From assembly GCF_000382205.1 (NCBI RefSeq), contig NZ_KB907789.1:806001-870000 (forward strand): 64,000 nt of DNA, written 5' to 3'. Shown here one piece after another: positions 34,107 through 51,590 of this stretch (position 1 is the first letter of the stretch; each line of letters begins with the position of its first letter). The translations under genes and the position numbers were made by a program. This DNA comes from Dyadobacter beijingensis DSM 21582 (lineage in GTDB: Bacteria; Bacteroidota; Bacteroidia; Cytophagales; Spirosomataceae). The notes beneath the pieces are model-generated. The model was not told the DNA's origin. It made no database searches and was given only the letters and a program-made list of their open reading frames with translations.

Positions 34107-37034
34107 ATGTCAGCAAACCTGTTTTCGGAATTCTTTCCTTCGGACAAGTCGGCCTGGGAGGAACTGGCCGCGAAAGAGGTAAAAGGGCGGACAGACCTGC
34201 TGGATTCCTGGAAAACGTCGTCGGGGTTGCATTTCAAACCTTACCTGACAGGGGATGACGTAAACTGGAAAGCGGCCGCCGAAATAGCGAAAGCCCAAAA
34301 GCGGACACCCGGCTGGCTGAACCTCAACCTGCTGCCCGATTATCAGCTGCCGCCGATCAGTATCAGTACAGGACCTGAGAGCCTGGCGACCGGCGACCCC
34401 GTTGCCGAACTCGTCACGCTCGTCTCCGCATTTGCCGACACCATGCTGCAAGCCCCGCAGAATGGCTCCAACTGGTCGGAAACATTCGACCGGGTGTGCA
34501 TTACCGTGCCCGTCGGCTGCCAGTACCTCACCGAAATCGCCAAATTACGGGCATTGCGTTACCTGTTGCGGAAAGTCGCCAAGACCTTTGATATCCGCGA
34601 CAGGGCACCGCTCATTCACGGAATTTCCTCGCTCCAGTACGTAGCCGGGCATTCGGATTATACCAACCTCATACGCGCGACCACGCAGGCGATGAGCGCC
34701 GTTATCGGCGGGTGTGATGCCATGACGGTGATGCCTTTCGACACCGATAATGCATTAGCTACCCGGCTGGCAAGCCATATTTCCGCTATCCTGGAACATG
34801 AGAGCTTCTTTTCGAAAGTAGCCGATCCGGCGGCCGGCTCGTATTTGCTGGAAAGTATGACCCGGCAACTGATCGAAGAGGCCTGGGCGCTGTTTTTACA
34901 AAAACATGCCGTTTTCCTGAATGTGCCGGGTAAGATCATACCGGAACCCGCCGGATCGGCTGAGCCTTTCCAGACCGCCGAAGGCATTGCCATCAAACCC
35001 ATTTACACCGAAACCGACGTCCACGACGCTGCACATCTCGCTTTCGGCGCCGGAATGCCGCCTTACCTGCGCGGGCCTTACGCGAGCATGTACCTGGAAC
35101 GCCCTTGGACCATACGCCAGTACGCGGGCTTCTCGACCGCGTCGGAGTCCAATGCATTCTACCGCCGTAACCTCGCCGCAGGCCAAAAAGGCCTGTCCGT
35201 AGCATTCGACCTCGCAACCCACCGCGGCTACGATTCCGATCACCCGCGCGTTACGGGCGATGTAGGCAAAGCCGGCGTAGCGATCGACACGGTGGAAGAC
35301 ATGAAGGTGCTATTCGACCAGATACCGCTCGACCAGATGTCGGTATCGATGACGATGAATGGCGCCGTCATACCCGTAATGGCCTTTTTTATCGTCGCTG
35401 CCGAGGAGCAGGGCGTATTGCCGGACCAACTGACCGGGACGATCCAGAACGACATCCTGAAAGAATTTATGGTCCGGAACACCTACATTTACCCGCCCGG
35501 ACCATCCATGCGCATTGTGGGTGATATTTTCGCTTATGCCTCGCAGCATATGCCGCGCTTCAATTCCATCAGTATCAGCGGGTACCACATGCACGAAGCG
35601 GGTGCACCTGCACATATGGAGCTCGCGTACACGCTTGCGGACGGGCTCGAATACATCCGCACGGGACTCGCCGCCGGCATTGCCATCGACGATTTCGCCC
35701 CGCGCCTTTCGTTTTTCTGGGGCATAGGGATGAACCATTTTATGGAAATTGCCAAAATGCGGGCCGGGCGACTGCTTTGGGCTAAAATCGTGAAGCAGTT
35801 CAGCCCGCAGAATGAAAAATCGCTGATGCTCCGCACGCATTGCCAGACGAGCGGGTACAGTCTCACCGAGCAGGAGCCATTCAATAACATCGCCCGCACG
35901 GCGATCGAAGCAATGGCGGCCGTCATGGGCCACACGCAGTCGCTGCACACCAATTCCTTCGACGAGGCCATCGCATTGCCCACGGATTTTTCGGCGCGCA
36001 TTGCGCGGGATACACAGCTCTATATCCAACACGAAACCGACCTCTGCAAGGCCGTTGACCCGTGGGGAGGCTCCTATTATGTCGAGTATTTAACCATGCA
36101 GCTCGTGGAAAAGGCGTGGGTGCTGATCGAAGAAGTGGAAGCATTGGGCGGCATGACCAGGGCCATCGAAACGGGCCTGCCCAAAATGCGGATCGAGGAG
36201 GCAGCAGCCCGCAAGCAGGCCCGCATTGACGCGGGCAAGGAGGTGATTATAGGTGTAAATCAATTTAAAACCGCTGAAAAAACAGCATTCGACATTCTTG
36301 AAATCGATAATGCCGCGGTCAGACATGCGCAGGTAGCGAGCCTGGAAGCCATTCGCAGCCGGAGAAATTCCGAAGATGTGCACGCTGCACTGCGACGCAT
36401 AACCAATGCCTGCAACGCCGCGGGCGGGAAAGATATGGACACAAACTTGCTGGCGCTGGCCGTGGATGCCGCGCGTAAAAGGGCTACATTAGGGGAAATA
36501 TCCGACGCGATGGAAAAGGAATTCGGGCGTTACCAATCTACTATACGATCTGTTTCCGGCGTTTACCGGGCGGAGGCTTCCGAGGACGAAAACTTCCGGA
36601 AAGCTCGTGAGATGTCCGATGCATTTGCCGCAATGGAGGGCCGCAGACCGCGCATGATGGTTGCCAAGATGGGCCAGGACGGCCACGACCGGGGGGCGAA
36701 AGTAATCGCCACCAGCTTCGCCGACCTCGGTTTCGACGTCGACATCGCGCCGCTGTTCCAGACGCCGCAGGAAGTGGCTTTGCAGGCCATTGAAAACGAC
36801 GTGCACATCGTTGGCGCGTCGAGCCTTGCCGCCGGGCACAAAACGCTTATTCCCGAGCTGATCGCCGCATTGAAGGAACTTGGAAGGGGCGATATAATGG
36901 TCATCGCCGGCGGCGTGATCCCGCAGCAGGACTATGATTTTTTATACAATGCTGGCGTGAAAGGTATTTTTGGCCCCGGAACAGTGATTTCAGTGGCCGC
37001 ACAGGAGATTCTTACCAAGCTGATGGAAGATTAA
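34107..37034 (+). CDS. Methylmalonyl-CoA mutase, shortened small subunit fused to large subunit
   Basis: 975 residues from the ATG at 34107. Residues ~1-290 resemble part of the non-catalytic small subunit MutA: the opening [20 protein letters not shown], then a jump to the second half of the barrel ([68 protein letters not shown]). From ~298 the catalytic MutB barrel begins: [20 protein letters not shown], then [11 protein letters not shown]. The C-terminal ~128 residues are the B12-binding domain with [12 protein letters not shown] (DxHxxG). It interconverts succinyl-CoA and (R)-methylmalonyl-CoA. The catalytic half starts ~40 residues later than separate MutB proteins. It overlaps the convergent KAS gene by 4 bp. 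Confidence 0.92.
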
Positions 37035-38227
37035 TTTACACCCGCAAAAACCAGCGAAGTACAGTTCCCACCGAAACCGAAAGAATTGGAAAGCACGTAA
37101 TTCAGGGTATAGTTGCCCTGAAAAGCGGTTACAGGCGCATTTTCGCTTCCGTTAATGGGTTCGCTCACATTCAGGCTCGGGAACAACTCGCCATTTGCAA
37201 TACCGAGAATGCTGAAAATAGCTTCCACAGCCCCGGCTGCACCCAGTGTATGCCCCGTGAACGATTTGGTAGAACTGTAAGGCGGCATTACCTCAAACAA
37301 TTCCCCCATTCCGAAAAACTCCACCTGATCGTTGTTCTGCGTACCGGTCCCGTGCGCATTTACGTAGCCGATCTGCCCTGGCGTAATGCCTGCGGAACGG
37401 ATGGCCTCGTGCATGCAACGGATGGCGCCCGTGGCTTCGTCGGACATGGCAGAAGGGTGGTGCGCATCATTGGCGTTACCAAAGCCGGCGACTTCGGCGT
37501 ATATTTTTTTCCCGGCCGTGAGTTCTTCCGCTTCCAGTACGAGGTATGCCGCGCCTTCGCCGAGGTTTAGACCGTTGCGGTTCATGTCGAACGGTTTGCA
37601 GGGAGCGTCCGAGAGTATCTTCAATGCATTGAAACCATTGACCGTGTATTTGGCCAGACTGTCCACGCCGCCAACAATGGCCCGTTTCACCCGCCCGGAG
37701 CGGATCAGCCGGGCACCGAGCATTATCGCATTCGCGGACGACGAGCAAGCCGTGTTAATGGTGTCGGTAAAACCTTTGATGCGGTACCGCTTGATGAGTT
37801 TCAGGGTATGCGCCGAGCAGCCGTAGGATTCGAGGTATTCGGAGCCTTCCGACTTGTGGTTGGCATCTTCGTACAACTGGTCGGTGAGGCACATGCCGCC
37901 TACCGTGCTGGCGGAAATAAGCGCGGTATCCAGCGAAGAAAGCTGCCCCAAAGTAAGCCCGGCATCAGTGATGGCTTCCGTGAAAGCCTTGTCCGCCAGC
38001 AGGCACGTACGCGTGTAACCTTCCGCGGATTCGAGGCCCTGCGCGGCTTTCAGCGCTTCATTGCTCATCCGCACCTCGCCGAACGGCAGCTGCGACGCGT
38101 AAAGCGATTCAAACCAGGCCACTTTACCAATCCCCGAACGTCCCGCACGCAGGCTTTCGTGATTTTCGCGCACATTGTTGCCAATGGCGGAAATCATGCC
38201 CATACCGGTCACCAGCACCCTTCCCAT
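37031..38227 (-). CDS. Beta-ketoacyl-ACP synthase II-type (FabF-like), pigment/resorcinol locus
   Basis: A 398-residue condensing enzyme with a full Cys161-His292-His326 triad ([36 protein letters not shown]). It extends an acyl-ACP by two carbons. The gene is 6 bp after the ACP gene and is the last of the leftward series, which points to a special role with that ACP rather than primary fatty-acid synthesis. Such KAS proteins occur in aryl-polyene and flexirubin clusters of Bacteroidota. The sequence alone does not tell its chain length or starter. Confidence 0.85.
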
Positions 38228-38233
38228 CGAAAA

Positions 38234-38500
38234 TTAAGCAGCTTTTGTATTGGCGAGAATGTACTCGGCCATGTGATTTACATCGACGAGGATTTTGCGC
38301 CCCTCAGCCGGATTGGTGATCTTAATACCATACTCGCGTTCAAGCAGCACCACGAGTTCCAGCGAATCGATGGAATCGAGCCCCAGATCGCCGCCGAAAA
38401 GCGGTTCGTCGTCTTTGATGTCGGCAGGGTTAATGTCGAGCAGGTTCAGGTATTGTACAATTTGCCCTTTAAGAATGGGCTTCAAGCTTTCTATGTCCAT
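38234..38500 (-). CDS. Acyl carrier protein
   Basis: An 88-residue ACP. Ser43 in the LGLDSIDSLELVVLLE helix is the phosphopantetheine site. It is longer and less acidic than housekeeping AcpP (~78 residues), as specialised carriers often are. It lies between the ABC permease gene and the KAS gene, and a phosphopantetheinyl transferase is encoded at the far end of the cluster. Confidence 0.88.
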   Translation of the reverse strand: MDIESLKPILKGQIVQYLNLLDINPADIKDDEPLFGGDLGLDSIDSLELVVLLEREYGIKITNPAEGRKILVDVNHMAEYILANTKAA

Positions 38501-38547: not shown

Positions 38548-39825
38548 TTAAATAATTCTTTCTAACCGTAACTTAAAATATGTTCCAAGTTGACAAAACA
38601 CGATAAAAATGCCCAGAAATGCGAATACCGCCCGCAAATCCTGCCAGCTCCCACCTTTGAGGAACAGCACGTAAAACCCTTCGAGGCACCAGTGCAGGGG
38701 TGAAAAATTGCTGAAAAACTGCATGAAACCCGGCATCACGAACGTCGGTACCAATATGCCCCCTATTGCCCCGAAAATGATGATCGAAATGGCGCCGAAT
38801 CCATTCGCCTGCTGCTCCGTTTTGGCAAATGCGCCGATCATTAAAGCATAACTCACGGCGGCCATACTGCTGATGAAAATCACGGCGATCGTGGCGACGA
38901 CATTGTCGGGCACGCTCAATTTCGGCAGGCCGAGTTTGGGTAAAATCCAGATCCCCATCGAGAAGGTGAGCGCCACCTGCAATGCGGCTACGACCACGTA
39001 CACCGCCATTTTACTGAACATAACCACCATGAATGTCGTAGGCATGGTTTTCAGCCGGAGGAAACTGCCGTTCACACGCTCTTTCACGATATTGCTGCCG
39101 AGCGATACCACCATGAAAAACATGGCGAAAATCGTCCAGGCAGGTACATTATGCTGGGTGGAATTGGGAATGGCCGTGGAATTATTGTTCCGCGCCACGA
39201 TCTGATCGATGCCCACGCGGTTGGAAATCATCTTGTCTTTGAGCTTCGCCGAGCGTTCGGCAATGTCCATATTGGCGTACATCCGGTCGATCATCAGGGA
39301 ATTTTCGATCACGCTCATGTACGACTGGATCACGCTCATGACCGAGTAGCTGTAATTTTCCTGCAAAACGGGATCGTTGTAAAATGCCAGCCTCGGCATC
39401 GACACCTTCTCGCGCGCCGTGGTATCATGTTCCAGGCCGAGATCGTCCATCAGAATGCTGCTCACATCTTCCGCATTACTTTCCAATCCGGCCGAAAACG
39501 TCGCCGGAATGTACAATGCGATCATTTTTCCCCGTGCCAGCAGCTCCGATTTCAACGATTCCTGCGGGATGCCATCCTGCGAGTCGATTTTGAAAAGCCC
39601 CGATTTTTTCAGCAAATCGACAAGCTTAACACCTTCTTTACCCTCGTCCTGGTTCACGACCAGCAGTGGTATCTGGTTCTCGTTCACCATTTTATAGGCA
39701 CTATCCTGAATAATGGTAATGATAAAAACCAGCAGCAGGGGCATCAGGAACATCAAAGTCAGCCCTACCTTGTCGTTCAGGAGCAGGAGCAGTTCTTTGC
39801 GTAACGATGAATATAATTTGAACAT
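38548..39825 (-). CDS. ABC transporter permease (ABC-2 type)
   Basis: A 425-residue ABC-2 membrane protein. One N-terminal segment (VGLTLMFLMPLLLVFIITII) is followed by a long periplasmic loop (~residues 40-230), then five segments, including the conserved NGFGAISIIIFGAIGGILVPTFVMP stretch. It is the usual topology of drug, lipid or polymer exporters. It starts 4 bp after the ATPase gene, so the two form one exporter, presumably of the product of this locus. Confidence 0.88.
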   Translation of the reverse strand: MFKLYSSLRKELLLLLNDKVGLTLMFLMPLLLVFIITIIQDSAYKMVNENQIPLLVVNQDEGKEGVKLVDLLKKSGLFKIDSQDGIPQESLKSELLARGKMIALYIPATFSAGLESNAEDVSSILMDDLGLEHDTTAREKVSMPRLAFYNDPVLQENYSYSVMSVIQSYMSVIENSLMIDRMYANMDIAERSAKLKDKMISNRVGIDQIVARNNNSTAIPNSTQHNVPAWTIFAMFFMVVSLGSNIVKERVNGSFLRLKTMPTTFMVVMFSKMAVYVVVAALQVALTFSMGIWILPKLGLPKLSVPDNVVATIAVIFISSMAAVSYALMIGAFAKTEQQANGFGAISIIIFGAIGGILVPTFVMPGFMQFFSNFSPLHWCLEGFYVLFLKGGSWQDLRAVFAFLGIFIVFCQLGTYFKLRLERII

Positions 39826-39829
39826 AAGC

Positions 39830-40585
39830 TTAATCGCGGTACTCTTCGCCGGTGAGGTTGATGAACAATGTTTGCAGGTTATCTACACCGTGCGCGGTTT
39901 TCAATGCCTGCAAATCACCTGCTGCAATAACCTTTCCATGGTCGATCAGCGCGATATTTTTACAAAATTCCTCCGCCTCCGACATATGGTGCGAAGTATA
40001 AATGATGGTCGTTCCCCCCTCGTTGAGCTGCTGCAAATAACGGATAATGGCATTGCGGCTCTGCACGTCCACGCCTACCGTCGGCTCGTCGAGAAACAGG
40101 ATATCCGGCTCGTGAATAATGCCGATGGCCAGGTTTACGCGGCGTTTCATACCGCCCGAAAACGTCCCTACCTTTTTGTCGCCCGCCTTTTCGAGTCCCA
40201 GCACTTCGAGCAAATGCTCGCGCCGCTCTTCCAGCCGTGTTTTGGAAAGATTGTACATCGCCCCGAAGTAGTCGAGGTTCTGGCGGGGCGTAAGTTCCTG
40301 GTAAAACGCATATTCCTGCGGAACAAACCCGACGCGGCTCTTGCGTTCATAATCTGAATAAGGCGTGCCGTTGCCAAAAAACCGCACATTTCCGGAACTA
40401 ACAGGGATAATACCGCAGAGAATGGAGATCAGCGTCGTTTTGCCTGCGCCGTTTGGCCCCAGCAAACCGAACACGTCCGACTGCACGACGTCCAGCGAAA
40501 CGTCGGAAAGGCTATCCTCCTGGGCGGATTTGTAGCGCTTATAAACTTCCCGGACCTCAATGCACACGTTATCCGTCATATCCAC
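39830..40585 (-). CDS. ABC transporter ATP-binding protein
   Basis: A 251-residue ATPase. Walker A GPNGAGKTT, signature FSGGMKRRVNLAIG, Walker B DILFLDEPTVGVD and switch TSHHMSEAEE are all intact. It is the CcmA/DrrA-like class that pairs with ABC-2 permeases for export. It is flanked by the BtrH-like gene (5 bp upstream) and the permease gene (4 bp downstream). Confidence 0.92.
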   Translation of the reverse strand: MDMTDNVCIEVREVYKRYKSAQEDSLSDVSLDVVQSDVFGLLGPNGAGKTTLISILCGIIPVSSGNVRFFGNGTPYSDYERKSRVGFVPQEYAFYQELTPRQNLDYFGAMYNLSKTRLEERREHLLEVLGLEKAGDKKVGTFSGGMKRRVNLAIGIIHEPDILFLDEPTVGVDVQSRNAIIRYLQQLNEGGTTIIYTSHHMSEAEEFCKNIALIDHGKVIAAGDLQALKTAHGVDNLQTLFINLTGEEYRD

Positions 40586-40590: not shown

Positions 40591-41622
40591 TTACCTGCCC
40601 AGCTTCAAGCGGGAAAGTTTTTCAAATGCCTCTTTTTCAACCAGACGGATATCCAGCATCATATCGGCGATTTCTTCAAAATCCTTCTGCTCCGTGAGGC
40701 GCCCTTTGTACACGCCGGCCATTTTAATGGCGCTGGCTCGCCACATATCGCCCGCTTTCGTGAAGTCCTCGGAGATATTCGCCACGCGGTCGTCCTGCAA
40801 ATAGGCTGCGGCCTCTTCCAGGAAAGCCCCGTACAAAAAGCGGAAGCCCCCGCCGCCCGTACCGATCTCCTCCTGCATCCGCACGATCTGGCCCAGATAA
40901 AGGCTCGCTTTGCGCAAGCCCAGTTTATCCCGCCATTTGCGGACGTGGTTGGACGTGTGCCGGATGCCGTTCACACCCGCGAAATTGCCGGGAATGCGCA
41001 GCATATCCCGCACATTGCGCCGGATACCCGACACGACCCCCTTCCGGATCATGTCGTCGGTGATCGGTTTTATTTTTTCGGGGAAATAAATATGACCCTT
41101 GGGAGCGAGCGGGCCCTGCGCAAATCGCACGCGGGAGAGCTCTTCTTTCGAGAGCGAAGTCACGTCTTCCATGACGGGGTCGCTGATGAGATAGCGGCCG
41201 TCTTCCTCTCCGAAAACGATGAGGTTATGGGCGTTGAAATGGAAGCGGTATTCTTTGGGAAAATAAGTGAGGTGAAAAACCCCCACCTGGCAGCCCACGG
41301 GTGCGCCTTCCTTCACTTTCTGGTCCAGAAATGCTTCGGCGGCGGCTGGGTTCGAGAATTTCTTGCGCGTTACCTCCACGCCGAGCGACTTGCAGGTGCG
41401 TTTGAAAATCGCACCGGGCATCGTCCGGAAGGAGATCGCCGGGCCGTTGTTGACCGTCAGAAAGGGAATTTGTATGTAAAACAGGCCGGACCCCATCCCG
41501 AACGCCAGCGGCTCGGTCATGAAATCGAGACCGTGGTAGCGCAGCAATGCGGTGGTCACCCCGTTTTCGCAATGGGCCGTTTGTACGTGGCGGAACGCAT
41601 CCGTTTGACTGTCAATATTCAC
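40591..41622 (-). CDS. BtrH-like protein (BtrH N-terminal plus DUF4872)
   Basis: A 343-residue protein. The N-terminal half has the BtrH_N cysteine-protease-like fold with HCENGVTTALLRYHGLDF near residue 17 (Cys18 probable nucleophile) and the later HFNAHNLIVFGEEDGRYLISDP. The C-terminal half is DUF4872-like. In butirosin synthesis BtrH moves an acyl group from an acyl carrier protein onto an amine. By analogy this protein may transfer an acyl group from the ACP encoded nearby; that is an inference. It is in a tight series with the ABC genes. Confidence 0.83.
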   Translation of the reverse strand: MNIDSQTDAFRHVQTAHCENGVTTALLRYHGLDFMTEPLAFGMGSGLFYIQIPFLTVNNGPAISFRTMPGAIFKRTCKSLGVEVTRKKFSNPAAAEAFLDQKVKEGAPVGCQVGVFHLTYFPKEYRFHFNAHNLIVFGEEDGRYLISDPVMEDVTSLSKEELSRVRFAQGPLAPKGHIYFPEKIKPITDDMIRKGVVSGIRRNVRDMLRIPGNFAGVNGIRHTSNHVRKWRDKLGLRKASLYLGQIVRMQEEIGTGGGGFRFLYGAFLEEAAAYLQDDRVANISEDFTKAGDMWRASAIKMAGVYKGRLTEQKDFEEIADMMLDIRLVEKEAFEKLSRLKLGR

Positions 41623-41626: not shown

Positions 41627-42025
41627 TCAACCTTTAAAATTTTTCAACTCGCTCACAGTAATGTCGAAAGCCCTGGCGTATTTTTCCAGCTTCCTTTCGC
41701 TCAGATCTTTGAAAACGGATGGTTTGAAGTGTCTTTTGATAAAAAACGGGAAGAAACCCGTGTAGCCTGCCAGGACCGACAAATCCATCAGGCGAAGTTC
41801 CATAAAATAGTATACCGGGCTTTTCTCGCCGTTCGCTACCGCTTTCCGCGCATCTTCCACCCGCTCGTTCACCTCCTCCCAGGCACTGTCCAGCGCCTGC
41901 TTTTTGATATCCCAACCTTTGCTCAACGCGGTTTCGTACTTGCCATCGTCGTTCTTGACGTAGCACACTTCCCGGGTAAATTTGGCGAGCGCGCCGGGGT
42001 CTTGCGGAAGATCCTCCTTTTTCAT
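41627..42025 (-). CDS. Conserved protein of unknown function in the resorcinol locus
   Basis: A 132-residue, mostly helical protein with no signal peptide. A central hydrophobic and aromatic patch (SPVYYFMELRLMDLSVLAGYTGFFPFFIKRHFKPSVF) could touch the membrane or a lipid. The end (LSERKLEKYARAFDITVSELKNFK) looks like a short helical, HTH-like tail. I do not recognise the family. It lies 4 bp before the BtrH-like gene and 56 bp after the KAS III gene. Confidence 0.7.
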   Translation of the reverse strand: MKKEDLPQDPGALAKFTREVCYVKNDDGKYETALSKGWDIKKQALDSAWEEVNERVEDARKAVANGEKSPVYYFMELRLMDLSVLAGYTGFFPFFIKRHFKPSVFKDLSERKLEKYARAFDITVSELKNFKG

Positions 42026-42081: not shown

Positions 42082-43230
42082 TCAGCACACGGTCAGCAGG
42101 CAGAACATGTATGAAAAGCGCGAGCTTTCCGGCACTGCAAGCAGTATTTTTTCGCCCTTTTTCAAAGCCCCGCTGTTGAATACCTCTTCCAGCATCATGT
42201 AAATGGACGCCGCACCTACGTTTCCTTTCGTCACGAGGTTGGTGTACCATTTCTCCTTGGGGACCGGCATGCCGTTTTCCTTGAAAAATTCGTCGATTTT
42301 GGCTTCGAAGAAATAGCTGGACAAATGCGGCAGGAAATAGCTCACGTCGTCCATTGTTATTCCTTTCTTAGCCATAATATCCCTGAGCTTGGCGAAACCC
42401 AATTTAACAATTTTTTCGCCCAATAGCTTCACATCCTGCTTGATACTGAAAACGGACTGGTCCTGGATTTCTTCTGCTGTGAAATCTTTGTAGCTTTTCA
42501 AAGTGCCGTCTTCCAGCTTGTCCGCGCCCATGTACATACACGCTTCCACCTCATTCGCGTAGGAACAGCCTTCGATCCAGTCTATTTTCAATGAAATCCC
42601 TTCCTGGTTAGGGGCCGACTCCACGAGAAATGCACCCGCACCGTCGGAAAGCATCCAACGCAGAAAGTCCTTTTCGAATGCGAGATACGGGTTCTTTTCC
42701 AGCTTGACGAGCTGCTGTACCTCGTCCTCGAACTGGTCGGCACGCAGCACAGTCGACAAGCGCTCGGAGGCACAGGAAACCGCCTTTTGCTTCTCGCCCA
42801 GCTTCACGGCCATGTACGCGTATTTGAATGCATGCATCCCCGCGCAGCACACGCCCGAGGGCGAAACCACTTCTATCGACCCGGTCTCGGGCAGGTTGCC
42901 GTGCACCATCGAACCGTGCGATGGCATCAGCTGGTCGGGACTTGACGTGGCGCAGCTCAGCAAGTCCATTTCGCCGATTTCTGCCGGGTTGTTTTTGAAC
43001 AGGTCCTTGATAGCCAGCGCCGCCATTTCTGCATTGGTATGCGTGGGGGTACCGTCTTTGCGAAGCGCGTAATACCTGTTTTTAATGCCATTATTGCGTA
43101 GAACAATGGCTTTTGACTTGGATGGTTTTCCGTTGATGTATCCTAAATATTCTTCCATTTCCTCATTGGAAACAGACTCATTCGGTAAAAATTTGGCAAT
43201 CCTGGTAATATATGCTTCTGACATTATCAT
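42082..43230 (-). CDS. darB: Beta-ketoacyl-ACP synthase III, DarB-like
   Basis: A 382-residue KAS III fold. The triad is Cys129 in VVSPSGVCCAGMHAFKY, a His in SYFLPHLSSYFFE (~residue 290) and an Asn in VTKGNVGAASIYMMLEEVF. DarB-type enzymes join two beta-keto acyl units to the ring of dialkylresorcinols, and directly adjacent DarA aromatises it. I set the start at 43230, where ATG overlaps the DarA stop as ATGA; a second ATG at 43224 is equally possible. The family call rests mainly on motifs plus the neighbouring DarA. Confidence 0.82.
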   Translation of the reverse strand: MIMSEAYITRIAKFLPNESVSNEEMEEYLGYINGKPSKSKAIVLRNNGIKNRYYALRKDGTPTHTNAEMAALAIKDLFKNNPAEIGEMDLLSCATSSPDQLMPSHGSMVHGNLPETGSIEVVSPSGVCCAGMHAFKYAYMAVKLGEKQKAVSCASERLSTVLRADQFEDEVQQLVKLEKNPYLAFEKDFLRWMLSDGAGAFLVESAPNQEGISLKIDWIEGCSYANEVEACMYMGADKLEDGTLKSYKDFTAEEIQDQSVFSIKQDVKLLGEKIVKLGFAKLRDIMAKKGITMDDVSYFLPHLSSYFFEAKIDEFFKENGMPVPKEKWYTNLVTKGNVGAASIYMMLEEVFNSGALKKGEKILLAVPESSRFSYMFCLLTVC

Positions 43231-44138
43231 TTGGTTTCTACACCACAAAAATATTCTTTTTTCTTCTTAATCGCATTGGCGGTAAATGGCGCGATCAGCA
43301 ACCGGTACGCCGTCACCAATACCGGCGCCACCATAAAAAGAGCTACCAGCAGGTAGTACTTGAAAAATCCGACGAGCCGTTTCCGCTTTTCGGGCGTGGT
43401 ACCTTTCGTTTTGATCAGGTTGGCCCAGATCCTGAATAGCTTCTTCGCCCTTCCTTCGATGAAAAGGATGTCGGTAGGTATGGTAATCAGGCCCGTGGAC
43501 ATGATTTCTGTCTGCAAACCGGCGTATTCACGCTTATCGAATGCTCTTTTGACGATCGCCCCGAATCGCGAAGCGCTGCGGATGTCTTCGTCGCTCACGC
43601 CGGGCTTAGGGAAAATGCCCCATTTGCGGTCTTTACGGCCCGTAAGCATCCAATGCAGGATAGTTACGGCGCTGACGAGGTTTGAAACGCGGTCCATCAG
43701 CGGGATATTGCCTACCAGCCTGCCGCCGGCATCGGCAATGAGCTTTTTGATGCTCTCCTGCGAATTGAGCCACATATTCCGGCCGCCTATTACGGTCACG
43801 ATCGGCGTTCCTCCACCAGCCAGACGTTTAAAAGCCTGACTTTTTAAAAACGACGTAACGGGCAGCGAAGGCGACAAAAACCAAGGCTGGTAACCGAGTA
43901 CGATGAGGTCGTATTTTTCGGCTCCAAAATGCAGTGGTTGCAGCTCAATGGGGTCCTCCTGCACGCATTCGGGCATTTTATCGAAAAACTCGTCGGTAGT
44001 CCAGGGAAATACAAAAGGTTTTGCAGGGAAAATTTCCAGTCGCTCTATCGTCTCAGGCGCGAACGGTTGCAGGAACTGATCGATGATTTCATTTAACTGA
44101 CCTGATTGAGAATAGTTTACGACTAAAATATTTTTCAT
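43227..44138 (-). CDS. darA: DarA-type dialkylresorcinol enzyme
   Basis: A 303-residue protein. The N-terminus has a flavodoxin-like start (KNILVVNYSQSGQLNEIID), then LIVLGYQPWFLSPSLPVTSFL and VIGGRNMWLNSQ, the recognisable pattern of DarA (dialkylresorcinol condensing enzyme) proteins. The C-terminus holds one or two membrane segments (YYLLVALFMVAPVLVTAYRLLI). With DarB it makes 2,5-dialkylresorcinols, the alcohol part of flexirubins. Its stop overlaps the next start in ATGA. Confidence 0.83.
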   Translation of the reverse strand: MKNILVVNYSQSGQLNEIIDQFLQPFAPETIERLEIFPAKPFVFPWTTDEFFDKMPECVQEDPIELQPLHFGAEKYDLIVLGYQPWFLSPSLPVTSFLKSQAFKRLAGGGTPIVTVIGGRNMWLNSQESIKKLIADAGGRLVGNIPLMDRVSNLVSAVTILHWMLTGRKDRKWGIFPKPGVSDEDIRSASRFGAIVKRAFDKREYAGLQTEIMSTGLITIPTDILFIEGRAKKLFRIWANLIKTKGTTPEKRKRLVGFFKYYLLVALFMVAPVLVTAYRLLIAPFTANAIKKKKEYFCGVETK

Positions 44139-44166
44139 TGGGGTGCAAATTCCTGTTAATGCATTC

Positions 44167-44643
44167 CTATTTGAGATCCGAACCTTTCAACACCTTCGAA
44201 TCCTTCGCATAATCGGCGATGACGTTTTTCAGGTGGGCGTCGAGCTTGTCGTAGCCCGAAACGACCGCCTGTTTGTCGGCATCTATTTCCTTATTGTATT
44301 TCAAAATTCCCGGCGCGTGCTCCTGTATCGCGAGGCGCAGGAAACGGAACTCGGTATTATCGGGGTGGCTGTTGATCTCGTCTTCGAGCAATTGCACACC
44401 CTTTTTGAAGGTCTTGACTTTCCCTCCTACCCCTTTCACAAAACCGGCCTTTTTCATCGTCAGAGCGCCTTTGTAGGCATTCACCTTCGGGGTCGATTTT
44501 TCGGTTTCGAGTTTCGCAAGCACGCGGTCTATGGATTCCTCTTCCCCGCTCGAAAATGCCTTGTAATATGCTCCCTTATCGACCTGCGCACGGGCCGCAA
44601 ACGTCAGCGCACATGCCAGGAAAACCATCAAAAACCGCTTCAT
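44167..44643 (-). CDS. Small exported protein of the resorcinol locus
   Basis: A 158-residue protein with a signal peptide (cleavage after AARAQ, ~20). The mature part is helical, with repeated short helices that look TPR-like (YYKAFSSGEEESIDRVLAKL; KVNAYKGALTMKKAGF; KGVQLLEDEINSHPDNTEFRFLRLAIQE). It is periplasmic. Function unknown; it may guide handling of the lipid product. It lies between the methyltransferase and darA genes. Confidence 0.72.
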   Translation of the reverse strand: MKRFLMVFLACALTFAARAQVDKGAYYKAFSSGEEESIDRVLAKLETEKSTPKVNAYKGALTMKKAGFVKGVGGKVKTFKKGVQLLEDEINSHPDNTEFRFLRLAIQEHAPGILKYNKEIDADKQAVVSGYDKLDAHLKNVIADYAKDSKVLKGSDLK

Positions 44644-44686
44644 AACAATCGATATTTACGCATTCAGTATGTAAAAGGATCGGGCA

Positions 44687-45745
44687 CTACGCCTTTTTCC
44701 TGCATTCCAGAATCGTATGGTAACTGTCGCCGATCAACGGATACGTTTCAACCACCTCGAAACCAGCCTGGCAGACCAGCTCCTTCATCACCCCGATCCG
44801 GTACATTTTGCTATTGCCGTTGGCCATAATTGTAAAATACAAAGATGTAGCCACCAGGCTATAATGTGCAGCAGGATAATTCTGGTTATCAAAAAATGGT
44901 TCCAGAATGAACACCGTCGTGTTTTCCGAAGCCGCCTGAAAGGCATTTTCCAGGATCGCAACGATCTGTTCTTTGGAAAAACAGTCGAGAAACTGGCTCA
45001 TCCAGATCACATCGGCGCCCTGCGGGATTTTTTGCGTCGTATCAAGCAGGTTTATCGCGTGAAAATCGATGCGGTCGAGCAGGCCGCGTTCCGTGGCGTT
45101 GGCTTTCGCGACATTGAGCTGCACCGGCAGATCGAGTATTTTAATCCTCACATCCGGATCGTGGTCACAGCACGCGAAAGACCATTTCCCGGTATTCCCG
45201 CCGATATCGAACAGCGTTTTCGGTTTCTTGGCAAACACGATTTTCAGCGCCTCGGGAAATGCATTGTCGGAATAATAATGGTCGAACTCGAACCAGGAGG
45301 TTTTCGCGGGTTCGGGCAGGATCGAAAGGCCTTCGTAGATAGTCGGCCAGTTGCCGAGCTCTTTCAGGCCCTCGGGTTTGCCGTTTACGATGCTTTCGGT
45401 CATGTGGCTTGCTCCGAGGTAACACACGTCTTTCATGAAATTCATGTTCACGCGGGTCATTTCGTCTTTCAAAAGGAAGAAGCCGATCTTGCTGATTTTG
45501 ACGATATCGTTCTCTATTTCCACCACGCCCAGGATTTCCGCCGCTTCCAGCAAAAGGGTCACGCCGTATTCCGAGACATTCACATTTTCGATAATCCTGG
45601 CAATGCTGACGCCCTTGCGATTTTCACTGATGTACTGTAAAATGCCCAGGTCCCTCAGCGCCACCACCGATTGAAAGTACATCGGGCCAAAGGCTATCTT
45701 CTGTGCTTCATACTTGGCTTCAATAGCCGACAATTCTTTTTTCAT
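44687..45745 (-). CDS. SAM-dependent methyltransferase
   Basis: A 352-residue class I methyltransferase of the O-methyltransferase type. The N-terminal winged-helix dimerisation part (LRDLGILQYISENRKGVSIARIIENVNVSEYGVTLLLEAA) is followed by the SAM-binding motif TLFDIGGNTGKWSFACC (~178) and VILEPFFDNQN-like post-motifs. It may methylate a hydroxyl or ring carbon of the resorcinol or polyene product, as flexirubins are methylated. Its start overlaps the YdcF-like gene stop by 4 bp. Confidence 0.85.
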   Translation of the reverse strand: MKKELSAIEAKYEAQKIAFGPMYFQSVVALRDLGILQYISENRKGVSIARIIENVNVSEYGVTLLLEAAEILGVVEIENDIVKISKIGFFLLKDEMTRVNMNFMKDVCYLGASHMTESIVNGKPEGLKELGNWPTIYEGLSILPEPAKTSWFEFDHYYSDNAFPEALKIVFAKKPKTLFDIGGNTGKWSFACCDHDPDVRIKILDLPVQLNVAKANATERGLLDRIDFHAINLLDTTQKIPQGADVIWMSQFLDCFSKEQIVAILENAFQAASENTTVFILEPFFDNQNYPAAHYSLVATSLYFTIMANGNSKMYRIGVMKELVCQAGFEVVETYPLIGDSYHTILECRKKA

Positions 45746-46482
45746 TGTACGCTTTTATTGTTCCCTGTTTGTTCGGAAGAGGGTATCATCCGGTCCTTGT
45801 ATTTTCTTCTGTATTTAGCTTTTTTCAAATCCTCTTCATGCCAGACGATGTACTTGCCCATCGTACCGCGGAAGCGCTTGAAAAACCCTTCCTTGTCCGA
45901 CAACTTCACAAAACCTTCCTTCACCAACGCGTTGCTATGGTCGGCCTTCGGCTCGTATACGTTGATCGTCTTCACGGTATCGATTACCGTCGGCAGCAGG
46001 CCAATCGGAAGCTCATACTTTTTGATGAACTTCTTCATATAGCTCGTCTGAATAGGATCTGTGGAAAGCGCAATTTTTGAAAACCCGAGGTCTTTTGCAA
46101 GGCGGTAGGAATAATACACGTTTTCCGTGCTGTGCTGGGCCTTTTCTTCGGTAAACAAATGCTCCCGCGGAATGCCGAGCGCCTCGGCGTAGTTGGCCAT
46201 CACACGCGCCTCGATGTAGGGTGTAGCTACGGCGCCTCCGGAAAAAATCACGTTTTTAGTATAACCCTTGGAATAAAGGTAATAGGCCCAATGGATGCGC
46301 AGCTGGTGCACCATGTCCCATTTCTGGCCGTTGTAGGGGAAACCCGGGACGATAATCGCGTCATATGGAGCCTCTTTCGCGCCTTTCGTGAAGGCTTTTG
46401 CCGCCGAACGGTAGAGCATTTTACCGCAACTGGTAAACAGCAGACAGACGATCAGCAGGAAAAACGAGTTGGCTATGCGCAC
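45742..46482 (-). CDS. YdcF/SanA (DUF218) family lipoprotein
   Basis: A 246-residue protein with a lipobox (LLFTSC, Cys19). The DUF218 domain shows YDAIIVPGFPYNG, NVIFSGGAVATPYIEARVMANYAEALGIP and EKAQHSTENVYYS, the usual order in YdcF/ElyC/SanA proteins. The C-terminus is very basic (KKAKYRRKYKDR). Related proteins work on envelope lipid carriers and YdcF binds SAM. Here it is coupled to the methyltransferase by an ATGA overlap. Its exact reaction is unknown. Confidence 0.8.
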   Translation of the reverse strand: MRIANSFFLLIVCLLFTSCGKMLYRSAAKAFTKGAKEAPYDAIIVPGFPYNGQKWDMVHQLRIHWAYYLYSKGYTKNVIFSGGAVATPYIEARVMANYAEALGIPREHLFTEEKAQHSTENVYYSYRLAKDLGFSKIALSTDPIQTSYMKKFIKKYELPIGLLPTVIDTVKTINVYEPKADHSNALVKEGFVKLSDKEGFFKRFRGTMGKYIVWHEEDLKKAKYRRKYKDRMIPSSEQTGNNKSVQ

Positions 46483-46622: not shown

Positions 46623-47258
46623 CTAAGCTTTGAACGATTTGCTCCATTTCTTGTAGAGGCTCTTGTCGATTTCCTGGTTGATCTTGTAAACGCCCCCGGC
46701 CCAGTAATTGCGGAATCCGAACCCGCCCGCTTTGCCTTCCACTTTCTCCGTATGGATCACCTTTTTCGTAGCAAGGTCGATGAACGTTACCCAGGCGATC
46801 AGCTTCTCGGCACTCTTATTCAGGCTTTCCACCACGTACACGACGCCGATGCCTTCTTTCTCGCTCAATGCATATTTGGCCACCGATTTTTTCACCTGGT
46901 CTTCGGTAATGCTGTATTCGTCGTCGGTAATGTTTTTCTCGACATTCACCGCTTTATTCAGCTTCACCATGTCCTCCACTTTCGACTTGTACTGGTCGTC
47001 TTTCAGGTTGAATGCTTTTTGCAAAGAGAATTTCTTCGGTTCAAGCTCGATAAGGTTGTTCCAGCTTACGATATGCTGATTTTGAATGGCTTGCGCATCC
47101 ATAAAACCTGCTTTACCAATGTATTTGGCCTGCGTAAAATCGAGTCCGAGAAATACGAGCTTCGTCTTGCCGGCCAGGAGGTCGGCCATGGTGTTGTCGG
47201 CCGACGCGATTGTCGCCGCATTGAACAACACGAATGCGATGAGTAATAACTTTTTCAT
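46623..47258 (-). CDS. Exported protein of unknown function (resorcinol locus)
   Basis: A 211-residue periplasmic protein with a signal peptide (LLLIAFVLFNAATIASA). The mature part is lysine-rich with alternating strands: TKLVFLGLDFTQAKYIG at the start and KLIAWVTFIDLATKKVIHTEKVEGKAGGFGFRNYWAGG near the end. I do not recognise a characterised family. It sits 27 bp after another secreted-protein gene and looks like a related, but not clearly homologous, companion. Confidence 0.72.
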   Translation of the reverse strand: MKKLLLIAFVLFNAATIASADNTMADLLAGKTKLVFLGLDFTQAKYIGKAGFMDAQAIQNQHIVSWNNLIELEPKKFSLQKAFNLKDDQYKSKVEDMVKLNKAVNVEKNITDDEYSITEDQVKKSVAKYALSEKEGIGVVYVVESLNKSAEKLIAWVTFIDLATKKVIHTEKVEGKAGGFGFRNYWAGGVYKINQEIDKSLYKKWSKSFKA

Positions 47259-47285: not shown

Positions 47286-47897
47286 TTATTTCAGCTTTTT
47301 CTCGATAAATGCCGCCAGCGACTTTCCTGCTTTGGCATAAGATTCCGCAATGCGGGTGCCTGTATCGAAGTCGAAACCGGCAAACTGGCCGCCCGGCACA
47401 TTCCGCATCGCGATTTCTGCGGCTTTGGATTTGCCGGCCGATTCCACCAGGTCGATTTCGAAGTCAACATACGCATTTTTGCGCATAACGCCCACGTTGA
47501 AGCCCGGCTCGACGAACTTCGTTTTCACGACCAAAGTATACTGCGCATCGGGGCGGTTCTTCACGACCATAATGCCTTTATCCTCCAAACCTTTGTTGAA
47601 CAGCTCTTCAAACTTCGGCTCGTAGCGGTTCTGGCGGTCGTCTACCCAGGCTTTTTTCCAGGTATCACCTTTACCGGCTTCCTTGGCATTGTACTCGGCG
47701 GATTTCTTATCTAAATACTCCTGCTCGGTCGCAAATTTGCCAACCCCGAAGTCGGAATAATCGTAGGTGACATTCACGGTTTTCTGGCCCGCCAGCACGC
47801 TTACATCACCAGAACGGAGATCGACACGCTGCGCAACGGCTGCATCTGCGGCGAGGAACGTAATCGCCATTACAGACGCATAAATAAACTTTTTCAT
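47286..47897 (-). CDS. Exported protein of unknown function (resorcinol locus)
   Basis: A 203-residue protein with a signal peptide (cleavage after AAVAQ, ~22). It has VNVTYDYSDFGVGKFATEQEYLD, then YTLVVKTKFVEPGFNVG and a C-terminal GTRIAESYAKAGKSLAAFI helix. The pattern of a small sandwich with a long helix resembles periplasmic lipid- or ligand-binding factors but gives no firm call. Its gene comes 34 bp after the ligase gene. Confidence 0.72.
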   Translation of the reverse strand: MKKFIYASVMAITFLAADAAVAQRVDLRSGDVSVLAGQKTVNVTYDYSDFGVGKFATEQEYLDKKSAEYNAKEAGKGDTWKKAWVDDRQNRYEPKFEELFNKGLEDKGIMVVKNRPDAQYTLVVKTKFVEPGFNVGVMRKNAYVDFEIDLVESAGKSKAAEIAMRNVPGGQFAGFDFDTGTRIAESYAKAGKSLAAFIEKKLK

Positions 47898-47931: not shown

Positions 47932-49188
47932 TCAAATATAGATCAATTTTTCAGGTTTGCGTTTCTCCTGTTTGTAGATCCGGAAAGTTAGTTCTTCAGC
48001 GGTTACGAAAGTTAATGCAGGCGAAACGCGGAGCCGCGATTTGAACAAAGAATGCATATTTTCCTTGAATGCGGAGGTCTGCAGCTGCATCGGAAGCACG
48101 ACGGTAATCTCGTCGTTTCCAAACTCGTTTTTAGATACGACTACCTGGTACAAATCGATTTCTTTCACCGCATCCAGCACATCGAACAATGCCGGTGGAA
48201 AAATGGTAGTGCCTTTGAATTTGATCATTTGCTGCTTCCGCCCCACGACCGGTCCCAGGCGCGGGCTCGTACGCCCGCATGCACAGGGCTCGTGGTAAAC
48301 GTGGCACAGGTCGCCGGTTTTGTAGCGCAGCAGCGGCACGCCCTCCACACCCAGCGTAGTGATCACTACTTCGCCCAATTCACCACTTTTGACCGCCTTA
48401 CCTTCGTCGTCCACCACTTCCAGGATCAGCAGATCGGGGTTCAAGTGGCCGCCTTTGCCTTCACTGCATTCCGTAAACGCAGCGCCCATTTCAGTGGACG
48501 CGTAGGTTGAGTACAGTTTGACGTCCCATTGCTCGGTAATGCGCTTGCCGAGTTCGTTGTAGGTAAAATCCGGGTTACGGATCGGCTCCCCGATGCAAAT
48601 GATGGATTTAATGGTCGAGGCGCGAAAATCGATATCGTTCGCGATCGCATAATCGATCAGCCGCGGGATAAATGAAGGGATCGCGATGATCACTGTCGGC
48701 GAAAACCGCTGGATCGACTCCCATTGCAGGAACGGCGCTCCCGGGCCTACGCGGATCATGCCCGCGCCCATCTTGCGCGCGCCCATCCAGTAAGCGAGAC
48801 CGGCCATAAAGCGCCGGTCGATGGTGGTCATGAGCTGGTAAATATCGCTTTCCGTGCCCCCGGCGCATTGAAACGACTGTGCTTCGTTGGTAGCAAGCCT
48901 CTCCACGTCCGCATCAGTCAGATAGAATGCGACCGGATCGCTTAATGTACCGGAAGTCGTCACAAAGTCGGTAATGCGGCTTTTGGGTACGCACAGGAAA
49001 TCGTCATTGTATTGCGCGAGGTCGTCTTTGGTCGTAAATGGCAGCTGCGCGAGGTCGTCCACCGTTTTGATCGCATCGACATTGATATGATGCTCGCGGA
49101 AAATGCGCTTATAGTAATTGGAATAATTGGAAACGTGCAATAAAAGCTGTTGCAGCGCATGTTTCTGGGTTTCAGGATTCATGGCCAT
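47932..49188 (-). CDS. PaaK-like acyl/aryl-acid adenylating ligase
   Basis: A 418-residue phenylacetate-CoA ligase-type enzyme of the ANL superfamily. TTSGTLSDPVAFYLT is the phosphate-binding loop, YSTYASTEMGAAF the adenine motif and LLRYKTGDLCHVYHEPCACGRTSPRLGPVVGR the hinge region, with a Cys pair as in PaaK/F390 synthetases. It would activate a carboxylic acid with ATP, then load it on CoA or directly on the ACP. In flexirubin loci such ligases activate acyl or aryl acids; the substrate here is unknown. The gene is second in the leftward series. Confidence 0.87.
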   Translation of the reverse strand: MAMNPETQKHALQQLLLHVSNYSNYYKRIFREHHINVDAIKTVDDLAQLPFTTKDDLAQYNDDFLCVPKSRITDFVTTSGTLSDPVAFYLTDADVERLATNEAQSFQCAGGTESDIYQLMTTIDRRFMAGLAYWMGARKMGAGMIRVGPGAPFLQWESIQRFSPTVIIAIPSFIPRLIDYAIANDIDFRASTIKSIICIGEPIRNPDFTYNELGKRITEQWDVKLYSTYASTEMGAAFTECSEGKGGHLNPDLLILEVVDDEGKAVKSGELGEVVITTLGVEGVPLLRYKTGDLCHVYHEPCACGRTSPRLGPVVGRKQQMIKFKGTTIFPPALFDVLDAVKEIDLYQVVVSKNEFGNDEITVVLPMQLQTSAFKENMHSLFKSRLRVSPALTFVTAEELTFRIYKQEKRKPEKLIYI

Positions 49189-49219: not shown

Positions 49220-50905
49220 TTAATGTTTGCCTTGTTTGCTTTCGGCTATACGCTCACGGATCGCCTTTTCCTCATTCAGCGACGAAACCTCGTGTTTCAA
49301 CGCCTGTTCAAAATAGCCGACTGCCTTGCCAAAATCACCCTTTTTCTGATGGTACTGCCCCAGGAAGAAGTACGGCAGGTAACTCTGCGCGTTGTTGGCG
49401 ACGAATGCCTGCTCATCCTGCTGCGTCAGCGATAGCGGGGCGTCCAGCATCACATATTTAGTAATTTTCTGCCTCACTGATTTAAATGCCTCAAACTTTT
49501 TATAGTCGGCAGTTTTCAGGAAAGGATCGGGATCGATATCCAGCGAATCGTAAGATGTAAAATTTCCTTTCTGCGCGAATACATTCGCCAGGTCGTATCC
49601 TACAAATTCGCCGAGCTGGTACGGCGGCGCCGAGATCCAGAACTCCTTTTTGGCGGGTTTGAACAAAATCCCGTGGTGGGCAATAAGCTGGTTGAGCAAT
49701 TTCGCATTGCCATAACCGATAAACTCGTCGTCGACGCCCTTCTGATCGCGCAGAATGCCGGCGGCCTGGTCAACGCCCATCGGGTACGATCGCCCCATGA
49801 GCTGCGTCATGCGGTCGAAACGGGCTTTGGAGTCGGTATCACGGATATTATTGATATTCACCGAATCCTGCACGAATGCATCGCTCTGGTAATGGTTCGC
49901 GCACACGACCGCATCCTTGCCCGGATCGTAGATGCCCATTTTTTGCGGCGATTTCTCAATGATAACAGCCTTATCATCGGCCGCCGAGCCGATCAGCAGC
50001 GATTCCGAAACGAACGTCTCGCTTTTCGCCGCGATTTTCCGTGCTTCCTCGATGGTACCAGCATATTGCAGGATCTCCCGTGCCAGAATCGAGATTGGCT
50101 CTTTGGCAGAAAAAGGAATGTCCGATTTCGACGCATTGAGCGTCACGGTAATGCCTTTTTCATTCATACCCGACACCACACCCGTAAGGCCCGCCCACGC
50201 ATAGGAAGCAAATTTATACCCTTTGTCGGGGTTCATGAACACAATCAGCTTGTCTTCCGCGAAAGCGTCGCCCATGTAGAAATCGAAGTTGCGGGCAATG
50301 AGCAGGGTAGAATCTTTGGTGAGCGAATGGTTCACGGCGAATGACGTACAGCCGACCATGTTCAGGTCCGTAAGCGCATGGCCGATGTCGTGTGCGGCGT
50401 GGTAGTTGAGAATGCGGTAATATTTCGGGCCGATGTAATTAAACTGGTCGGAAAACGACTGCGAAACACCCCAGATCTCCTGCTGGTTTTCTTCGGGAAT
50501 GTATTTGTAAATGTCGCGGTTGAACCAGCCGACGAAGCCTTTCAGCACTTGCAGGAAAGCGGCGCTCGGGATCATTTCGCGGATCTGGCCCACGAAATGT
50601 ACTTCCTGCTTTTCCATCAGCTCCTTGGCCAGAATGCCGTAAACGAGCCCGCGCTCGTAGGGCGCGCCTTCGAGGTACATTTCCCAAATGCCGTGCTTAT
50701 TCTTCCGCAGCCAGTTGTTGCCCACGCGGTAGTGGTTCTCCCCTACCTTTTCGCGTTTGTAACTTTCGACAGTTTTAGTACTTTCAACATCCGGCGCCGG
50801 AACCCTGATCCGCCAGAGGAACAACCCGAAGAGTACCCCGAGGATCAGCAGGAAAATGAGGAATACTTTGAGTGCAGAACGCAGGACTTTGTTTTTCGGC
50901 CACAT
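49220..50905 (-). CDS. C45 family autoproteolytic acyltransferase/hydrolase
   Basis: A 561-residue Ntn-hydrolase of the C45 (acyl-CoA:6-aminopenicillanate acyltransferase) family. An N-terminal membrane segment (FLIFLLILGVLFGLFLW) is followed by the C45 core; Cys in NMVGCTSFAVN (~185) is the nucleophile exposed by self-cleavage, and LLIARNFDFYMGD is the second conserved strand. It faces the periplasm. The C-terminus carries a TPR-like stretch (LPYFFLGQYHQKKGDFGKAVGYFEQAL). It could attach or remove an acyl group on the exported product. It is the first gene of the leftward series. Confidence 0.85.
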   Translation of the reverse strand: MWPKNKVLRSALKVFLIFLLILGVLFGLFLWRIRVPAPDVESTKTVESYKREKVGENHYRVGNNWLRKNKHGIWEMYLEGAPYERGLVYGILAKELMEKQEVHFVGQIREMIPSAAFLQVLKGFVGWFNRDIYKYIPEENQQEIWGVSQSFSDQFNYIGPKYYRILNYHAAHDIGHALTDLNMVGCTSFAVNHSLTKDSTLLIARNFDFYMGDAFAEDKLIVFMNPDKGYKFASYAWAGLTGVVSGMNEKGITVTLNASKSDIPFSAKEPISILAREILQYAGTIEEARKIAAKSETFVSESLLIGSAADDKAVIIEKSPQKMGIYDPGKDAVVCANHYQSDAFVQDSVNINNIRDTDSKARFDRMTQLMGRSYPMGVDQAAGILRDQKGVDDEFIGYGNAKLLNQLIAHHGILFKPAKKEFWISAPPYQLGEFVGYDLANVFAQKGNFTSYDSLDIDPDPFLKTADYKKFEAFKSVRQKITKYVMLDAPLSLTQQDEQAFVANNAQSYLPYFFLGQYHQKKGDFGKAVGYFEQALKHEVSSLNEEKAIRERIAESKQGKH

Positions 50906-50948: not shown

Positions 50949-50956
50949 CAAAATTA
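50949..50956 (-). promoter_or_regulatory. -7 element of the leftward resorcinol-locus operon
   Basis: The minus strand reads TAATTTTG (TAnnTTTG), 43 nt before the C45 ATG, within the 58-bp space shared with the divergent phosphopantetheinyl transferase gene. Confidence 0.55.
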
Positions 50957-50963
50957 ACAATAA

Positions 50964-51590
50964 ATGGGCATCGTTTCTATAAAAACCGTTTCACCGGCAG
51001 CACAACTCGGCCTCTGGCGCATGACTGAATCGTGGGAAGAATTGTTTGAAATGCTTGATCTGCCCGCCACCGACCTGGCCGTACTGGAAAATATCCCCAA
51101 ACCCAACCGCAGGCAGGAATGGCTGGCGTGCAGGGTTTTACTCAAAGAAATGCTCGGGAAAGAGGCCGTGATTGGTTACGATACCGAACGTAAACCGCAT
51201 CTGACCGGCAGCTCAATGGAAATTTCAATGTCGCATTCGGGCGAATATGTGTGTGTGTACCTGCGCGGGGGCGCGTCCGTGGGGGTAGACATTCAGCGGA
51301 TGAAGCCGTCCATTTCCAAGGGTTCGTTTTACTTTTTGAATGAAAAAGAGCAATCCTGGGTCGATTTGGAGAACAATGTACAAATGCACCTGATCTGGTC
51401 GGCTAAGGAATCGGTTTTCAAATATGCCGGCGACGCGGATATCGACCTGAAAAAACATATCACGACAAGTCCGTTTTCAGGCAACCAAAACGGCCGTTTT
51501 GAAGTTAACCTGCAAAAAGGCGCCGTTCAGGAAGTTGTACGAGTTCAATTTGATACATTTGACGAATATGTACTAACCTGGACCATCTGA
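50964..51590 (+). CDS. 4'-phosphopantetheinyl transferase, Sfp type
   Basis: A 208-residue PPTase. It has the Sfp-family motifs: RKPHLTGSSMEISMSHSGEYVCVYL (substrate and CoA binding), VGVDIQRM with the Mg2+-binding Asp, and the WSAKESVFKYAG helix with the catalytic Glu and Lys. It activates carrier proteins by adding phosphopantetheine. Being divergent from the operon with its own ACP, it is the likely activator of that ACP, but it may also serve AcpP. Confidence 0.9.
   Translation: MGIVSIKTVSPAAQLGLWRMTESWEELFEMLDLPATDLAVLENIPKPNRRQEWLACRVLLKEMLGKEAVIGYDTERKPHLTGSSMEISMSHSGEYVCVYLRGGASVGVDIQRMKPSISKGSFYFLNEKEQSWVDLENNVQMHLIWSAKESVFKYAGDADIDLKKHITTSPFSGNQNGRFEVNLQKGAVQEVVRVQFDTFDEYVLTWTI

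Follow-up and report, generated by a model that had tools for sequence, protein, structure and literature searches.

Does a block of dialkylresorcinol genes without an evident aryl-polyene half encode a short pathway of its own, or is it one part of a pathway whose remainder lies elsewhere in the chromosome? The question is posed by a stretch of 64,000 nucleotides (hereafter the window) of Dyadobacter beijingensis DSM 21582, positions 806001-870000 of contig C4 in a 7.375-Mb genome of 13 contigs, in which a leftward run of 15 open reading frames (ORFs), from 50905 down to 37031, includes homologues of DarA and DarB. The original prediction, made from the letters of this DNA, favoured a self-contained pathway and mentioned a split over the chromosome as the other possibility. 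We consider it very probable that an ordinary pathway to flexirubin, a common yellow bacterial pigment, has had its genes divided between two loci by a rearrangement of the chromosome within Dyadobacter, and that the block is one of these loci. The block is not self-contained, because aryl-polyene genes are found on contig C1 and the gene for FlxY, a 4-coumarate-CoA (coenzyme A) ligase, lies in the window itself.

The polyene locus occupies C1 from about 1,531,900 to 1,552,400. By family or protein search, the means by which all whole-genome checks were made, the genome yields a single match to PF00221 (E<=0.001; C1:1539726-1541150), and the ORF concerned (C1:1539726-1541222) scores 811 bits against FlxA_rubin_TAL (NF053541; cut-off 700), which identifies it as the tyrosine ammonia-lyase FlxA. 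A histidine ammonia-lyase was considered and rejected, the hutH score being 438 bits against a cut-off of 539; FlxA resembles histidine ammonia-lyases at one specificity motif (PMC3992019), and therefore motifs alone would mislead. FlxB adjoins FlxA (401 bits; cut-off 340). Five ketosynthase-like ORFs lie near FlxA, four recognized by family matches and the fifth by 45% identity to the KAS II (beta-ketoacyl-ACP synthase II; ACP, acyl carrier protein) of the window; with FlxB they make up the ketosynthase and ketoreductase set for polyene extension. The search for ammonia-lyase, ketosynthase and ketoreductase genes that the original prediction had proposed is thereby answered. The same locus has two ACPs (one with 51% identity to that of the window, the other named by eye), an LpxL-like acyltransferase (family matches below cut-off), a tryptophan-halogenase-like flavin adenine dinucleotide (FAD) protein and a 1282-aa fusion of MMPL, acyltransferase and methyltransferase parts. 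Its hotdog/FabZ-, LolA- and glycosyltransferase-like ORFs were named by eye alone, and the dehydratases are putative.

In the window, the arrangement first described, 15 leftward genes and a divergent 4'-phosphopantetheinyl transferase (PPTase) between a mutase on the left and PIG-L on the right, is borne out by the ORF list and by scans against Pfam and NCBIfam with curated cut-offs. The gene identifications were largely correct too, with DarB, DarG, DarH, FlxY and C45 all above their cut-offs. What did not stand is the absence of polyene genes: FlxY (above cut-off) and a FlxJ-like methyltransferase (below it) are there. The features are listed here in leftward gene order, with the PPTase and the two flanks.

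51622-54099: PIG-L, right flank
50964..51590, plus strand: PPTase, divergent (PF01648, 34.8 bits; cut-off 25)
49220..50905, minus strand: C45-family autoproteolytic acyltransferase/hydrolase (NF040521, 220 bits; cut-off 85)
47932..49188, minus strand: FlxY, 4-coumarate-CoA ligase, polyene initiation (NF053551, 628 bits; cut-off 520)
47286..47897, minus strand: s203, secreted-looking protein (in 39/43 relatives)
46623..47258, minus strand: s211, secreted-looking protein (in 41/43 relatives)
45742..46482, minus strand: YdcF-like (DUF218) protein, lipoprotein-like N-terminus with a lipobox by eye (PF02698, 68.5 bits)
44687..45745, minus strand: FlxJ-like S-adenosylmethionine methyltransferase (NF053543, 471 bits; below the cut-off of 560)
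44167..44643, minus strand: x158, small protein, signal-peptide-like N-terminus by eye (kept in relatives)
43227..44138, minus strand: DarA, flavodoxin-like partner, putative aromatase (homologue names, position, predicted fold)
42082..43248, minus strand: DarB, resorcinol-forming ketosynthase (NF053539, 637 bits; cut-off 550)
41627..42025, minus strand: DarG (NF053545 flexirubin_DarG, 190 bits; cut-off 170)
40591..41622, minus strand: DarH, BtrH-type cysteine acyltransferase (454 bits; curated NCBIfam cut-off 300)
39830..40585, minus strand: ABC ATPase (PF00005, 102 bits)
38548..39825, minus strand: ABC-2 permease (PF12698, 103.9 bits)
38234..38500, minus strand: dedicated ACP (PF00550, 39.1 bits; cut-off 20.8)
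37031..38227, minus strand: beta-ketoacyl-ACP synthase of KAS II type, dar core gene (N and C ketoacyl-synt domains by Pfam)
34074-37034: methylmalonyl-CoA mutase, left flank

The block is conserved rather than a chance assembly, because 14 of its 16 genes (PPTase counted) are present in all 43 other DarB-positive Dyadobacter (tblastn, coverage >=60%); s203 and s211 are the two others. Small as it is, x158 is found in 43/43 of the other Dyadobacter blocks and likewise at many further Bacteroidota loci, and the plus-strand ORF that overlaps it (44143-44829) is probably spurious. The PPTase likely primes the carrier proteins, and the pathway roles of C45, YdcF, s203, s211, x158 and DarG are putative. 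Promoter and terminator scans gave counts close to those for shuffled sequence (19 against 13.8 expected, and 23 against 20.0).

DarA and DarB form the resorcinol-making pair of the flexirubin gene set, DarB being assigned by NF053539 and DarA by homologue names and position. The best relatives of DarB among the matches listed are from Dyadobacter (94% identity), its residues 8-387 align to StlD (5gk0), and its start is probably the ATG at 43224 rather than the TTG at 43248, judging from the reading frame and the relatives. DarA has no Pfam or NCBIfam family match at E<=0.001; its gene is placed directly ahead of darB, and its database homologues are mostly called 'hypothetical protein', some bearing the name dialkylresorcinol condensing enzyme DarA. 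The predicted DarA model (predicted local distance difference test score, pLDDT, 92.6) gives Foldseek matches to flavin mononucleotide flavoprotein folds (best E 4.2e-5), several of them receptor chains with a fused flavodoxin, which we read as flavodoxin matches.

Evidence that the two loci serve one pathway comes from their co-occurrence, counted only from matches over curated cut-offs in 48 Dyadobacter, in a family sample of 222 genomes with the same Dyadobacter among them, and in an even draw of 395 genomes from the phylum. DarB is found in 44, 46 and 30 of these genomes and FlxA in 47, 53 and 33, respectively, and FlxA is present in every DarB-positive genome (44/44, 46/46 and 30/30; Fisher p 1.5e-40 and 5.7e-42, kinship ignored). 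The phylum count leaves aside G238 and G458, both FlxA-positive, whose DarB matches score 519 and 499 bits; these two are included in the 32-genome linkage count given below. The suggestion that the pathway might be split over the chromosome is thus upheld, and a second locus constantly paired with this one is what the original prediction had said would make it an ordinary split flexirubin cluster. The pairing is one-way, because 7 of the 53 FlxA-positive family genomes have no DarB. Within Dyadobacter, G007 has neither gene, and G012, G025 and G045 have FlxA alone; the absence of DarB from G045 may be an assembly gap, because the assembly has a completeness of 81% and the block there is cut off by the end of a contig. 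Three further genomes, G094, G201 and G339 (loci L147-L152), the last of them from the phylum sample, have FlxA and FlxY clusters with no DarB match and are candidates for resorcinol-free aryl polyenes.

DarB-like matches of 380-405 bits (cut-off 550) were also seen in G150, G499 and G473, which have no FlxA match, and as a second copy in G403. We rejected these as examples of a polyene-free pathway and take them for a different family: the ORFs (L153, L154, L155 and L156) are 616-645 aa long and stand beside a neighbour of roughly 300 aa, Pfam assigns a fused Haem_oxygenas_2 domain to the G150 and G403 copies and DUF6999 to the neighbour, and the pieces compared (5.7 kb in G499, 16-20 kb in G150, G473 and G403) contain no other dar gene and no flx core genes. 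These loci are candidates for a separate resorcinol-like pathway. Elsewhere, two Niabella loci (L075, L079) have DarB and an ABC ATPase; these dar loci look rearranged, because no DarG or DarH match was found near DarB.

How did the two halves come to lie apart? DarB and FlxA are here on C4 and C1, and so not within the span of about 60 kb that we took as one contiguous cluster; measured from the nearer contig end, each locus lies >137 kb inside, and were C1 and C4 to adjoin at their nearer ends, about 470 kb or more would still separate the two genes. Relatives show other arrangements, and the synteny comparison first proposed proved informative: in 11 of the 44 DarB-positive Dyadobacter the two genes are on one contig, 46-52 kb apart; in ten they are on one contig at about 250 kb or more; and 22 others resemble this genome in having them on different contigs. 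We inspected the flx region in G000, G014, G047, G141, G012, G025, G094, G201 and G339. In the linked genomes G047 and G014, 30-34 kb of mostly housekeeping-looking genes separate the dar and flx blocks. Because G014 is collinear with window positions 19,568-50,905 save for one gene, and then continues, from the next gene onward, into C1:1519601, one breakpoint just left of window position 19,568 explains the split.

Immediately left of that inferred breakpoint, window positions 12579-19563 hold genes without a counterpart in the compared stretch of G014: by eye, an aldehyde-oxidase-like pair, an FAD monooxygenase, an AraC-like regulator, a membrane protein and a sulfite-oxidase-like protein.

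Among the 32 phylum-sample genomes with both genes, 26 have DarB and FlxA 6-27 kb apart, the six others, this one included, having them apart or on different contigs; in G141, of another genus, dar and flx genes are interleaved within one stretch of roughly 37 kb. We also built a tree from twelve joined proteins (47 tips; midpoint root, then re-rooted on G047+G015). One rearrangement fits it, because all 11 securely split Dyadobacter fall in one clade of 32 tips (support 0.87) that holds no linked tip.

Which genes of the block belong to which half can be read from genomes that have FlxA without DarB. FlxY is the 4-coumarate-CoA ligase of the flexirubin gene set, an activity assayed in vitro for the Chitinophaga pinensis enzyme (PMC3992019). 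It is present in 7 of the 8 FlxA-positive, DarB-negative genomes searched (in G154 by an edge fragment; in G086 none was found), and it was not found in G007. In G094 and G339, FlxY, a C45 relative (coverage 0.98 and 0.58, respectively) and a FlxJ-like methyltransferase are inside or adjoin the flx genes; in G201, FlxY is at the flx genes; and C45 is kept in G012, G025 and G045. FlxY is thus a polyene-side gene sited in the dar locus, and C45 is probably another, because in DarB-less genomes they are kept, or located, with the flx genes.

G012 and G025 amount to a natural deletion. Their block still lies between PIG-L and the mutase and keeps the PPTase, C45, FlxY, s203 and YdcF, and both genomes have the flx locus (L139, L140). 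At the block site we found no s211, methyltransferase, x158, DarA, DarB, DarG, DarH, either ABC gene, ACP or KAS II, DarB having been sought genome-wide and the other lost genes at the block-site pieces. The two genomes are sister tips, and therefore probably record one deletion.

The short interval that separates YdcF from the mutase at this site (L142, G012:C67; L144, G025:C12) is filled with imperfect 45-65 nt repeats with a GCTCCTCCGGAGC-like core, possibly a repetitive extragenic palindromic (REP)-like element.

Known systems offer close parallels. Chitinophaga pinensis likewise has, by locus tags, two separate loci, an flx cluster (Cpin_1853-1877) and darB/darA (Cpin_6850-6851), with the TAL (tyrosine ammonia-lyase) FlxA, FlxB, FlxY, several ketosynthases, DarA and DarB; FlxA and FlxY were assayed, and the product is an aryl-polyene ester of a dialkylresorcinol (PMC3992019). 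There flxY is in the flx cluster, whereas here flxY, the FlxJ-like methyltransferase and C45 are in the dar locus. In Flavobacterium johnsoniae, darA and darB also accompany polyene genes for one pigment, but in a single 37-kb flexirubin cluster as opposed to the two loci seen here (PMC3992019). Azoarcus sp. BH72, with its arcuflavin genes, has a dar cluster with DarA, DarB, an ACP, a BtrH-like DarE and an ABC transporter, and polyene genes in separate clusters, two of these lacking a physical link to one another; it differs in belonging to another phylum and in a chorismate-derived hydroxybenzoate, not tyrosine, as polyene starter (PMC3949708). The same source lists 39 genomes, of which 16 have dialkylresorcinol clusters; in nine cases that cluster lies inside the polyene cluster or next to it (PMC3949708). 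Closest to home, Dyadobacter sp. HH091, of the same genus, has a potassium hydroxide (KOH)-positive pigment and both dar and flx clusters; the accessible part of that source does not describe a split, a linked arrangement in relatives or the partition of genes (PMC9606717). For Arcticibacterium luteifluviistationis, flexirubin production has been predicted on the basis of an arylpolyene cluster (PMC6258284).

Bearing in mind that the activities of FlxA, FlxY and DarA/DarB have been shown by others for homologues, we envisage the following route. FlxA, encoded on C1, would deaminate tyrosine to 4-coumarate, which the FlxY of the window would convert to 4-coumaroyl-CoA; the C1 ketosynthases, FlxB and putative dehydratases would extend this unit to an ACP-bound aryl polyene, the ring of which is probably methylated by the FlxJ-like enzyme of the window. 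DarB would join two fatty-acid-derived units, probably supplied via the ACP and KAS II, and DarA would aromatise the ring to a 2,5-dialkylresorcinol. DarH would then most likely shift the polyene from the ACP to a resorcinol hydroxyl, giving the ester, and the ABC-2 pump and C1 exporter proteins would deliver the pigment to the outer membrane.

We rate DarH as a modest lead for the ester step, and as its best candidate because it shares its whole-protein fold with carrier-protein-dependent acyltransferases of the BtrH/CtaG/CcbD type. The fold relatives CtaG, CcbD and AziU2-U3 (PDB 9qvj, 9dkr and 8gs1) have just 9-16% identity to DarH; a DarH profile retrieved from PDB sequences three sc-apCC-4 helical entries alone (E 0.58 or worse), and a single-sequence search retrieved nothing. 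DarH residues C18, H128, H132 and D148 are invariant in 34 sequences, and the putative correspondence of a catalytic Cys-His-Asp set among them to C11/H128/D144 of CtaG is one of spacing, the CtaG residues being taken from entry titles. CtaG, CcbD and AziU2-U3 form bonds to amines; the bond proposed for DarH is an ester to a phenol. To the full proposal, that DarH transfers the carrier-protein-bound aryl polyene to the phenol, that G012 and G025 consequently make a resorcinol-free aryl polyene, and that the halves are separable modules, we give an even chance. A possible but more doubtful alternative keeps the split flexirubin half and has the ester made by C45 or by a FlxW-like enzyme of the flx locus, with DarH loading or editing acyl chains or the like: in C. 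pinensis the ester step was proposed for FlxW, not DarH (PMC3992019), whereas the fold and invariant residues of DarH resemble those of carrier-protein-dependent acyltransferases, DarH disappears together with the resorcinol genes, C45 being retained, and a BtrH-like gene is also part of the Azoarcus dar cluster (PMC3949708).

A self-contained, shorter pathway to a free dialkylresorcinol, or to a simple ester with, for example, an acyl group added by C45 or DarH, now seems highly improbable. The grouping of DarA, DarB, ACP, KAS II, an acyltransferase and an exporter is in its favour, and in some bacteria free dialkylresorcinols serve as bioactive or signalling compounds (PMC9606717, PMC3949708). 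We nevertheless reject it on the co-occurrence of over-cut-off DarB with FlxA in all three samples and on the presence of FlxY in the block, to which the FlxJ-like methyltransferase and the survival of C45, FlxY, s203 and YdcF without DarB in G012 and G025 can be added. Equally improbable are two independent pigments, a free aryl-polyene acid or lipid from C1 and a free dialkylresorcinol from the window with no ester between them: the DarB-less 7/53 suggest that the polyene half can persist alone, but over-cut-off DarB without FlxA was not found in the samples, the loci are linked in 26/32 phylum-sample genomes and interleaved in G141, and the known C. pinensis product is the ester (PMC3992019).

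Several observations, besides the assignment of the ester step to FlxW, weigh against a flexirubin pathway split once inside Dyadobacter. The 22 of 44 DarB-positive Dyadobacter with the genes on different contigs were counted without a check of contig ends. The split clade has a support of 0.87 in a tree with no true outgroup, and placing the root within the clade would turn the direction of change round. FlxA without DarB, in the seven family genomes and in G339 of the phylum sample, speaks against a strict two-way pairing; the window methyltransferase falls short of the FlxJ cut-off; and flexirubin as the end product of this strain is deduced here from genes.

That dar and flx genes can lie at separate loci is already known from C. 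pinensis (PMC3992019). For Dyadobacter, the proposed 'short resorcinol pathway' can be closed, and the case illustrates how mining one cluster at a time can report a single pigment as two partial clusters. The linked, split and resorcinol-deleted species of this genus are a natural test set, and, for a pigment in wide chemotaxonomic use, DarH is named as an enzyme whose part in forming the ester bond can be tested.

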